Assembly: GCA_019637115.1 (NCBI GenBank)
Contig: JAHBWH010000040.1
Span: 1 to 52,011, forward strand
Source: Myxococcales bacterium
Lineage (GTDB): Bacteria; Myxococcota_A; Polyangia; Polyangiales; Houyiibacteriaceae
Direction of reading: 5' to 3'
Length of the DNA stretch: 52,011 bases
Within the stretch, counting starts at the first letter, position 1, and every line of letters starts with the position of its first letter. The translations under genes were made by a program, and so were the position numbers. Of this stretch, positions 10,055-12,056 are shown piece by piece. Below the pieces are notes generated by a model. That model made no database searches and was not told where the DNA came from. It was given only the letters and a program-made list of their open reading frames with translations.

Positions 10055-10077
10055 GGACTTGGACTTGGACTTGGACT
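10055..10077. repeat. Short hexamer tract GGACTT
   Basis: Three full copies and one partial copy of GGACTT, the left edge of a 2-kb repeat island that ends near 12056. Confidence 0.8.
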
Positions 10078-10113
10078 GTCAGGGCACGCAGGCACGTCTT
10101 CGCGTGGCTCACG

Positions 10114-10218
10114 GCGGGGGAGGACACGCCGCGCCACACCGGCGCGGCGCTGATGGGGCTGTAACTTCGTGACAGCCCCATCGGCCTTGACGGTGTGGCG
10201 AGGCGTGTCCTCCCCCGC
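10114..10218. repeat. 105-bp two-tier hairpin element
   Basis: Outer arms 10114-10141 and 10191-10218 match over 28 bp with one mismatch. Inside them a second perfect 11-bp inverted repeat (GATGGGGCTGT, 10152-10162 and 10172-10182) closes a 9-nt loop AACTTCGTG. The layout resembles a miniature inverted-repeat element or a structured RNA. No target-site duplication is clear. Confidence 0.75.
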
Positions 10219-10658
10219 CTGTCCGTTCGATGGACCTTCGGGTCTCCCGGTGCGAGTCGCGGTCGACGGGCTCGCGGCGCTCCCGGTGCCACGAGGCGCG
10301 GACCACGGGGCTTCGCACCCGGATTCGTTCAAGCGACCTTGGAGGCTGACGCGCGCCCGGCACCTTCGGACGTTCGATGGACATCACGCCTGAAAGTTGA
10401 AAGTAGGGTCGGAGGCGAGCGCCGTCGTGAGCTGCGCGCACGACAGCGCTCGCAGGGTTCGACGTGCGTGAGGTGGCGACGTCCCGTGTCGAGCGTGCGG
10501 CGGTCGTCCGGAACAGCGAGTGGGCTTGCCCGCTCCGCGCCGAAGCGCTGCGCTCCGCAGGCGGGTGACAGGACGCGAGCACGTGAAGGGACGCGGACTT
10601 GGTCCCGGCTTCGGTTCCGTCTCCGACTCCGCAACGCTGCGTGTACGCGCGCGTGCCC
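10219..10658. other. Non-coding stretch of the repeat island
   Basis: No convincing gene. All open frames are Arg/Pro/Ser-rich shadows. An 11-bp motif GTTCGATGGAC occurs twice (10225-10235 and 10372-10382). From about 10594 the sequence becomes a degenerate 6-bp periodic tract of CGGNNN/CCGNNN type that leads into the next array. Confidence 0.5.
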
Positions 10659-10791
10659 GTCGTGCCCGTCCACGTCCACGTCCACGTCCACGACGTCCAC
10701 GTCCACGTCCACGTGCCCGTACGTGCCCGTCCACGTCCACGTCCACGTCCACGTCCACGTCGTCCACGTCCACGTGCGCGTGCGCGTGCGC
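10659..10791. repeat. Hexanucleotide array GTCCAC
   Basis: About 14 copies of GTCCAC in four blocks, interspersed with variants GTGCCC and GTGCGC. Two phase jumps occur at block borders. The array reads GTGGAC on the other strand, the same hexamer that opens the array at 11718, so these two tracts are in inverted orientation. Confidence 0.85.
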
Positions 10792-10870
10792 GACCAAAGA
10801 TGTCCGTAGGCGTTTCGCGAGGGGTAGAGGCGCGAGAGCCCTCACCATGAAGAAACCGCGGCTTCGTCGC

Positions 10871-11061
10871 GCGACTCGGACTCGGCCGCAGTCTCGGTCT
10901 CGGTCTCGGACACGGACCCGGACACGGACACGGTCTCGGACACGGTCTCGGACACGGTCTCGGACACGGTCTCGGACACGGTCTCGGACACGGACCCGGA
11001 CACGGACCCGGACACGGACCCGGACACGGACCCGGACACGGTCTCGGACCCGGACACGCTC
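10871..11061. repeat. Hexanucleotide array CGGACA / CGGTCT / CGGACC
   Basis: Perfect 6-bp periodicity with a higher order of 12: about five CGGACACGGTCT units followed by about four CGGACACGGACC units. All frames are open, which produces false ORFs. The array lies just downstream of the four-helix-bundle gene, which reads on the minus strand. Confidence 0.9.
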
Positions 11062-11103
11062 GCGGCCGCCGACGCCGACGCGGCCGCCGACGCCGACGCG
11101 GCC
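11062..11103. repeat. 18-bp direct repeat next to the four-helix gene stop
   Basis: An 18-bp GC-only unit starting GCGGCCGCC occurs at 11062-11079 and 11080-11097, with a third partial copy. It links the hexamer array directly to the stop codon at 11104. Confidence 0.75.
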
Positions 11104-11451
11104 CTACCGCCGCGGATGAAGCAGCCGGTACGTCATCGCGCCCACCCGGTCGACCAGCTCCAGCGCATGCTCGACCTGCGCGCCGTCCGCGTAGCCCCAG
11201 CGCCCGATGATGTGAAGCGCCGTCCGCGTCTCGTACGCCGACCCGAGCGCCGTCTCGAGCCGCAGCCGCCGATTGCCCGCGCGATGCCCGAGCGCTTCCG
11301 CGAGATTCAACGCGATGCTCTGCGCAGCGCGCCGCAGCTGGTCCATGAGCGAACGGTCGTGTTGCGCCACCGTGCGAATCATCGGCGCCAGCGCGTCGAT
11401 GAGCTGAAGGGAGACTTCGAGGGCCTGGAGGGGGATTCGAGCCTGGGTCAT
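11104..11451 (-). CDS. Four-helix-bundle protein (S23 / 23S rRNA intervening-sequence protein, Avd-like)
   Basis: A 115-residue helical protein with the family signature DQLRRAAQSIALNLAEALG (about residues 37-55) followed by LETALGSAYETRTALHI. Relatives are encoded in intervening sequences of 23S rRNA genes, or serve as the Avd subunit that binds reverse transcriptase and template RNA in diversity-generating retroelements. No reverse transcriptase or rRNA lies in this window, so its partner is unknown; nucleic-acid binding is inference from the family. ATG 11451 is chosen because the open frame upstream to 11634 is low-complexity and the family begins here. An 18-bp inverted repeat covers codons 2-8. 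Hexamer arrays lie on both sides of the gene. Confidence 0.85.
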   Translation of the reverse strand: MTQARIPLQALEVSLQLIDALAPMIRTVAQHDRSLMDQLRRAAQSIALNLAEALGHRAGNRRLRLETALGSAYETRTALHIIGRWGYADGAQVEHALELVDRVGAMTYRLLHPRR

Positions 11452-11562
11452 GCGCCCGCCACGCGAAAGGGGCGTGACAGCTGGCGAGCGACCGAGACGC
11501 GTGATTTGGCCGGCTGGCGCGAGCCTTTCGCCCCCCGGGCAGGGCCCAGGCTCGAATCCCCC
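11430..11562. promoter_or_regulatory. Nested inverted repeat spanning the four-helix gene start
   Basis: Arms 11430-11447 and 11545-11562 are a perfect 18-bp inverted repeat. Inside them GCGAAAGG (11463-11470) pairs with CCTTTCGC (11524-11531). The first arm is coding (codons for TQARIP) and the second is 94 nt upstream of the ATG. A leader RNA could therefore fold over the start codon. Confidence 0.6.
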
Positions 11563-11717
11563 GGAGGGCCCGGCGTCGCAATCCCCGCGACGCCCCTTGG
11601 ACGAGTCAGCCCCCCACTTCTCCAACTTGGCCACCTCGCGTTCGACTGCGGAGCAGTCCCGACGTCACGGGTCTCGGGTGGCGTGTCTTCGGAGATGCTC
11701 GTCTAACGAGTACGCGC
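11563..11717. other. Non-coding flank between four-helix gene leader and hexamer array
   Basis: No gene and no clear promoter. Open frames here are Arg/Gly/Pro-rich continuations of frames from the neighbouring arrays. Confidence 0.45.
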
Positions 11718-12056
11718 ACGTGGACGTGGACGTGGACGTCGCGGACGTGGACGTGGACGTGGACGATCCCCAACGCAGTCTCGGTGCCGGACACGGACAC
11801 GGACGGACTCGGACGCGGACGCGGACGCGGACGCGGACGCGGACGCGGACGCGGACTCGGACGCACGCGGACGCGGACGCGGACTCGGACTCGGACGCGG
11901 ACGCGGACTCGGACGCACGCGGACACGGACACGGACACGGACTCGGACTCGGACACGGACTCGGACTCGGACCCGGACCCGGACCCGGACGCGGACACGG
12001 ACGCGGACTCGGACGCGGACACGGACACGGACACGGTCACGGTCACGGACGAACAC
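11718..12056. repeat. Hexanucleotide arrays GTGGAC and CGGACN
   Basis: First come GTGGAC units (11718-11773). After a short break about 45 hexamers of CGGACG, CGGACA, CGGACT and CGGACC run from about 11788 to 12056. All reading frames stay open, which artificially extends the downstream cytochrome gene frame to 11450. Confidence 0.9.

Follow-up and report, generated by a model that had tools for sequence, protein, structure and literature searches.

The window, that is, the whole stretch of 52,011 nt that was analysed, contains an island of short tandem repeats around a single gene, located between a cyclic-nucleotide-binding protein gene and a beta-propeller protein gene. Arrays were located with Tandem Repeats Finder (TRF), and the features of the island are listed in Table 1. 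A sequence-only reading of this DNA had described the arrays, the 18-bp repeat at the stop codon and two long hairpins; TRF and a hairpin search find all of them in the same places. The GTCCAC and GTGGAC tracts are also, as it reported, inverted relative to each other across the gene.

Table 1 Features of the island (positions in the 52,011-nt window)
Feature	Position	Strand	Details	Evidence
Short GGACTT array, far edge	10055-10077			TRF
Second dispersed unit (module)	10092-10656	-	about 565 bp	genome copy comparison
Hairpin at 3' end of module	10113-10219	-	107 nt; 36-nt arms, 89% complementary	
GTCCAC hexamer array with GTGCGC tail, between S23 side and module	10667-10792		hexamers 10667-10775, tail to about 10792	TRF
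CGGACA/CGGTCT/CGGACC array, downstream of gene	10895-11058			TRF
18-bp repeat CGCGGCCGCCGACGCCGA, abutting stop codon	11061-11103			TRF
S23 unit (leader, long hairpin, ORF)	11083-11708	-		array-masked copy comparison
S23/IVP four-helix-bundle gene	11107-11451	-	115 aa; stop codon 11104-11106	PF05635, TIGR02436, AlphaFold
Long hairpin, start side	11421-11571	-	arms 11421-11453 and 11539-11571, 33 nt, 82% complementary	
Hairpin core GGCGAAAG..CGCGCCAGC / GCTGTCACGCC..CTTTCGC	within 11421-11571	-		
GTGGAC hexamer array, start side of gene	11718-11765		inverted relative to the array at 10667-10792	TRF
CGGACN hexamer array, outer edge on start side	11788-12051		about 45 units	TRF

The sole credible open reading frame in the island had been read from sequence as S23/Avd-like, and the database and fold searches agree. 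The protein matches the Pfam family 23S_rRNA_IVP (PF05635; E=1.5e-14, 54.6 bits against a cut-off of 33.8) and TIGR02436 (E=5.6e-16, 58.7 bits against a cut-off of 24). AlphaFold models it as four helices with a pLDDT of 94.2. The closest folds are 2RLD (Z 18.1) and 2GSC (Z 16.7), followed by Avd (4DWL, Z 14.1). The protein is a member of the S23/IVP family, with a four-helix bundle like that of 2GSC and 2RLD. The model also matches Avd and the chains of the ribonucleoprotein of diversity-generating retroelements (DGRs) with Z of 14-15 over 105-109 residues. Avd has 16% identity to the S23 protein on the structural alignment and was not found by a sequence search with that protein. The crystals of two solved S23 relatives contain five chains each, and the S23 protein is probably a pentamer. 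It is under purifying selection: copies in genomes G146 and G147 differ with dN of 0.05-0.12 and dS of 0.37-0.93, and dN/dS for S23 is about 0.1-0.25.

The window contains no detectable rRNA, and there is no reverse transcriptase, transposase or nuclease among the window genes scanned (about 22 of the 30 predicted, up to about 30 kb away), which for rRNA and reverse transcriptase agrees with the sequence-only reading. With S23 as its sole credible gene, the island carries no transposase or recombinase of its own. No Rfam 15 family reaches its gathering threshold in the island; a known RNA family was rejected, the low-threshold matches being miRNA-like chance matches to stable hairpins.

Two dispersed repeats in the source genome

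When copies in the source genome (8.88 Mb) are compared with the arrays masked, the island resolves into two adjacent dispersed repeats with arrays at the borders of both. Conservation among the copies begins and ends at arrays, which delimits the S23 unit and the module of Table 1. This division could not be seen from the sequence alone; contrary to the sequence-only reading, the hairpin at about 10.1-10.2 kb belongs to the module, a different repeat that mostly occurs without S23.

Three complete copies of the S23 unit are present, together with partial ones. They are 93-95% identical and have unrelated flanks. The region upstream of S23 recurs with S23 on contigs C15, C24 and C432 (at the contig end) and in part on C109 and C13. 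The module has at least 20 copies with 83-91% identity. With its 107-nt terminal hairpin it forms a high-copy repeat, at which many contigs end. A 463-bp module was tried as an order-wide marker and discarded because it is confined to the source genome, the sister genome G008 having only fragments of about 45 bp. At the place in G008 that corresponds to the window locus there is no island beside either flanking gene, and the gene order is broken there.

The GTCCGN arrays on the two sides of the S23 unit copies share orientation and sequence. The source genome also contains hundreds of overlapping matches to CGGACN and GTCCAC, many of them well away from S23 genes.

A second family of S23 genes, diverged from the first, is found on C383, C413, C146 and C168. 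Its flanks carry repeats of their own, GC-rich and with longer units, which lie below the period-6 threshold. Three family-B S23 genes (L006, L007 and L077; C413 and C168) share an interruption at one and the same position, in each case an insert of about 95 bp, similar among the three and able to fold into a hairpin (GCGGAATCATGCAC...GTGCATGATTCCGC).

The hairpin at the start of S23 genes

The start of most S23 genes lies within a long hairpin or immediately behind one. The median best-stem score is 21 at S23 genes and 8 at random places, and a score of at least 14 is reached at 44 of 56 S23 genes as against 4 of 183 random places; about one fifth of the S23 genes have no strong stem by this score. 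In the island, the 3' arm carries the start codon and approximately the first nine codons. A 3' arm with the start codon and first codons is found in the source genome and in G008, G009, G146/G147, G062 and G123. In G146/G147 a short 3' hairpin also follows the S23 stop codon, and the array on that side, where present, starts beyond this hairpin.

The outer arms differ among copies yet stay complementary, 96% being paired over 45 pairs in 17 sequences. Fourteen of these pairs are doubly changed (43 cells), which is reached in none of 500 shuffles, and slid controls give 2-5 pairs. In a set of 29 sequences from several lineages, double changes occur in 13 of 26 predicted pairs. The outer stem is maintained by compensatory double changes. 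The inner motif, CGCCA opposite TGTCA, is nearly invariant and has two conserved mismatches. A G-U pair occurs in one cell of the covariation set, and this scarcity would be compatible with selection acting on paired DNA and with correction by template switching, besides RNA. The earlier suggestion of an RNA-based element is supported in so far as the hairpin is kept by double changes, although pairing at the DNA level fits these too.

The island hairpin scores 104 bits against hairpin covariance model R1. The hairpin model also recovers diverged S23 loci in G002, G003 and G097, and matches upstream of DUF559 genes in G076 and G084. The strict hairpin core precedes 18 of 56 S23 genes, 6 of 21 DUF559 genes and none of 489 random places. 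DUF559 (PF04480) genes resemble S23 genes in that they are multi-copy and many are preceded by hairpins, some of which have the GCGCCA...TGTCAC core; the long hairpins of other DUF559 genes lack this core. In one case the 3' arm of the hairpin lies inside the DUF559 ORF, as in the S23 element. They differ from S23 in encoding a nuclease-type protein and in having no hexamer arrays. DUF559 has no match in the source genome. Loci with these DUF559 (Vsr-like nuclease) genes are L292-L294, L304, L320, L325 and L335-L338.

Period-6 arrays beside S23 genes

Among 184 genomes of the order, 101 carry S23 relatives, frequently with many copies each. Up to 20 kb was surveyed around each of 43 S23 loci from about 20 genomes, and period-6 arrays were called at an identity of at least 83% at lag 6. 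In species other than the source, the share of bases in arrays is 17% at 0-250 bp from S23, 14% at 250-500 bp, and 0.1-0.8% at more than 1 kb. An array is present within 1 kb at 32 of the 43 loci; 2000 circular shifts give a mean of 7.9 and a maximum of 15. The sequence-only reading had linked protein and arrays from their position, and had put forward enrichment of hexamer arrays near homologues as the way to check the link. This enrichment is found, and that the two belong together is further borne out by a hairpin-S23-array block that is present as a whole in G146 and missing from G147 (see below).

The signal is specific to one period. Near S23 there are 91 bp/kb at period 6 compared with 1.5 bp/kb far from it, while periods 2-5 and 7-11 are close to zero near S23 and the further signal is mainly at period 12. 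The sequence of the hexamer is specific to the lineage: CGGACN in the source genome, TCCGAN in G146/G147, CTGNCA in G024, GCGTCN in G181/G182 and AGCCGG in G178. At the surveyed loci the arrays are located at the edges of the element. The S23 loci of G139, G140, G090 and G095 have no arrays.

The closed genomes G146 and G147 have arrays at all 11 of their S23 loci, with 204 bp/kb within 500 bp. A background of 400 kb from these genomes, taken without regard to S23, contains one array (0.24 bp/kb), which is about 850-fold lower than beside S23. Among the TCCGAN clusters listed for half of the G146 genome, six of 10 lie beside S23 and four do not. Arrays being equally common away from S23 genes was the observation that the sequence-only reading had named as counting against the link: it holds in part in the source genome, with its many arrays at places other than S23 genes, and hardly at all in G146/G147. 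The tests of distance, period and background regions show that the association of S23 with arrays is far beyond chance. DUF559 genes, which are also multi-copy, have arrays at one of 34 loci, and this count rules out arrays as part of DUF559 elements.

Copies of the S23 gene are dispersed in other genomes too. Those in G024 are 84-89% identical over about 0.85-1.1 kb and have unrelated flanks. S23 is also kept at orthologous places in G146 and G147. The sister species G146 and G147 differ at one syntenic site: a stretch of about 830 bp in G146 carries hairpin, S23 and array, and in its place G147 has a different sequence of 183 bp. This difference could be a deletion in G147. At the one G146/G147 site examined for a target-site duplication none was seen, and the flanks there have diverged. 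S23 is present in both genomes at another syntenic site, where the array consists mainly of (AATCCG)n in one genome and of (AATCTG)n in the other. Such differences in array sequence between orthologous loci imply rapid turnover after insertion. Loci L180 and L181 have one S23 gene in common, and a second, inverted copy is present only in G147.

S23 genes often occur as inverted pairs, with a hairpin for each gene. In genus g11 the pairs are convergent and a few bp apart (L186-L191, L196 and L212), and the G024 copies are convergent pairs too; in G146/G147 they are divergent and about 0.5 kb apart (L178, L179, L181, L184 and L185). At the syntenic site L176/L182 the S23 genes are 78.5% identical, compared with up to 92.6% in the flanks, which suggests replacement or gene conversion among copies.

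Nature and possible origin of the S23 element

The S23 unit of the island represents an element that occurs in multiple copies and across the order. We are highly confident of its anatomy, which is a period-6 satellite, a long hairpin containing the start codon, the S23 ORF, in some cases a short 3' hairpin, and a second period-6 satellite.

Among known systems, the nearest by protein are the intervening sequences (IVS) of 23S rRNA with an S23p ORF in Coxiella and Leptospira. These are a few hundred bp long, with complementary ends that form a long stem; they are regarded as selfish, and the Coxiella ORF is decaying (PMC4990558). The S23 element has the same protein family and a long stem. Unlike IVS, however, it lies outside rRNA genes, flanked by protein genes, in many dispersed intergenic copies; both arms of its hairpin are on the start side of S23, with the start codon in the 3' arm, so that the ORF is not enclosed; it is bounded by period-6 satellites; and its ORF is under purifying selection, whereas that of Coxiella is decaying. 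The four-helix bundle is shared with Avd, the accessory protein of DGRs, but there is no reverse transcriptase near the S23 gene among the window genes scanned. Excision by RNase III is a further feature of IVS, and a TR/VR repeat pair with A-directed changes is one of DGRs. The defining features of IVS and DGRs that were testable are lacking in the S23 element, and it is therefore filed under neither. By analogy it may nevertheless work as they do, with a small RNA-handling four-helix-bundle protein being kept together with a hairpin in its own message.

In REP/RAYT and IS200/IS605-type systems, a short dispersed unit carries a single small gene and has hairpins close to its ends. The S23 element is likewise a short dispersed hairpin unit with a small gene, but S23 has no Y1 transposase domain, and we know of no satellites in these systems. 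A search of one open-access literature collection turned up no paper that connects S23 or DUF559 genes to hairpins or hexamer arrays. The protein family and its fold are known; the compound element of hairpin, S23 and satellites could not be placed among known systems.

How the combination arises can be read in several ways. The one we favour, though we hold it to be evenly balanced against the rest, is a family of selfish, hairpin-based S23 cassettes that gain period-6 satellites at their edges. In its favour count the clustering of arrays with a single period at S23, their position at the element edges, the covarying hairpins, the low dN/dS, the dispersed copies with unrelated flanks, the G146/G147 difference that includes the array, and the fold match to Avd. 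The S23 protein, probably as a pentamer, would bind its own hairpin, as mRNA or as single-stranded DNA, and so protect, regulate and propagate the cassette in cis. Cutting or copying would be done in trans by a nuclease or reverse transcriptase, either the host's or a foreign one. The satellites would grow at the ends of the element during or after insertion, by extension or slippage in a 6-nt register, and may persist after loss of the S23 gene. In the source genome, the S23 unit stands beside a second array-bounded repeat. As a whole this mechanism is tentative, and rather more doubtful than the general reading. Its weakest step is that the arrays form with the element rather than being its target, which we favour mainly from G146/G147. 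Arrays without S23 in the source genome and at four of the 10 G146 clusters, S23 lineages without arrays, the fifth of S23 genes with no strong stem, the near absence of G-U pairs, and the lack of a mobility enzyme in the element and of a target-site duplication count against the cassette reading, as do the possibility of a deletion at the G147 site and the broken gene order at the window locus in G008. The same balance applies to the word mobile in the sequence-only reading: dispersed copies with unrelated flanks support it, but no mobility enzyme was found.

The strongest competitor, although we think it unlikely, reverses this step. Hexamer arrays would arise independently and serve as landing sites, with the S23 cassette inserting into them or recombining between them. 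It would account for the many source-genome arrays without S23, for the GTCCGN arrays that match across the S23 unit like the two halves of a divided array, and for the module, a different repeat that is also bounded by arrays. However, the roughly 850-fold excess of arrays beside S23 over background in G146/G147, the G147 empty site, which has no array, and the rapid turnover of arrays after insertion all speak against it.

A less likely proposal is that S23 is a selected host RNA-binding regulator, the hairpin its autoregulatory leader and the arrays binding platforms for the pentamer. By analogy with TRAP, one repeat per subunit would give a fixed period without a fixed sequence. The start codon and first codons in the stem, the low dN/dS, retention of S23 at orthologous places in G146/G147, the five chains per crystal of the two solved relatives and the strict 6-bp period with varying sequence are all consistent with this. 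Against it, similar copies with unrelated flanks and presence or absence between sister species look selfish, the arrays are at the element edges, and some S23 lineages have none.

About as unlikely is a new class of selfish element in which S23 and its hairpin direct the making of satellites. Insertion or replication would add DNA in a six-nucleotide register whose sequence is not fixed, in a telomere-like synthesis by a pentameric protein ruler or a putative trans-acting polymerase. DUF559 nuclease elements would have this hairpin module in common with it.

We consider a trans-mobilised retroelement improbable. Here an Avd-like S23 would pass its hairpin RNA on to a reverse transcriptase whose gene lies elsewhere, and repeated template jumping at the ends would produce the arrays. 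The fold match to Avd and DGR ribonucleoprotein chains and the structured, covarying 5' end point in this direction, but no reverse transcriptase is present among the window genes scanned, no hallmark of retrotransposition was seen, and the hairpin core is common to DUF559 nuclease genes and not, as far as seen, to reverse transcriptase genes. Finally, that arrays and S23 genes merely accumulate in tolerant intergenic DNA is very hard to credit, since, although both are intergenic and the source genome is rich in arrays, array density decays within a few hundred bp of S23 and exceeds that of circular shifts, a single period is involved, the multi-copy and often hairpin-headed DUF559 genes have almost no arrays, and G146/G147 contrast with their background.

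S23 genes are multi-copy and have no assigned function; in this order, the start-codon hairpin and the fixed-period satellites make their function testable. If the link between S23 and arrays is causal, the element would be a new kind of mobile element, perhaps with a new way to make tandem repeats, and would offer a starting point for tracing where Avd, which handles RNA in DGRs, came from.

Elsewhere in the window, ARAGORN predicts a tRNA-Pro(cgg) at 31713-31806 (+ strand); the place falls within a DnaJ-domain ORF predicted for the - strand, and one of these two calls may be wrong. Two further tandem repeats are present: a 26-bp repeat in four copies (8526-8628, 96% match) between two genes, and a 15-bp repeat in 8.4 copies (42711-42836, 94% match) within a predicted ORF.
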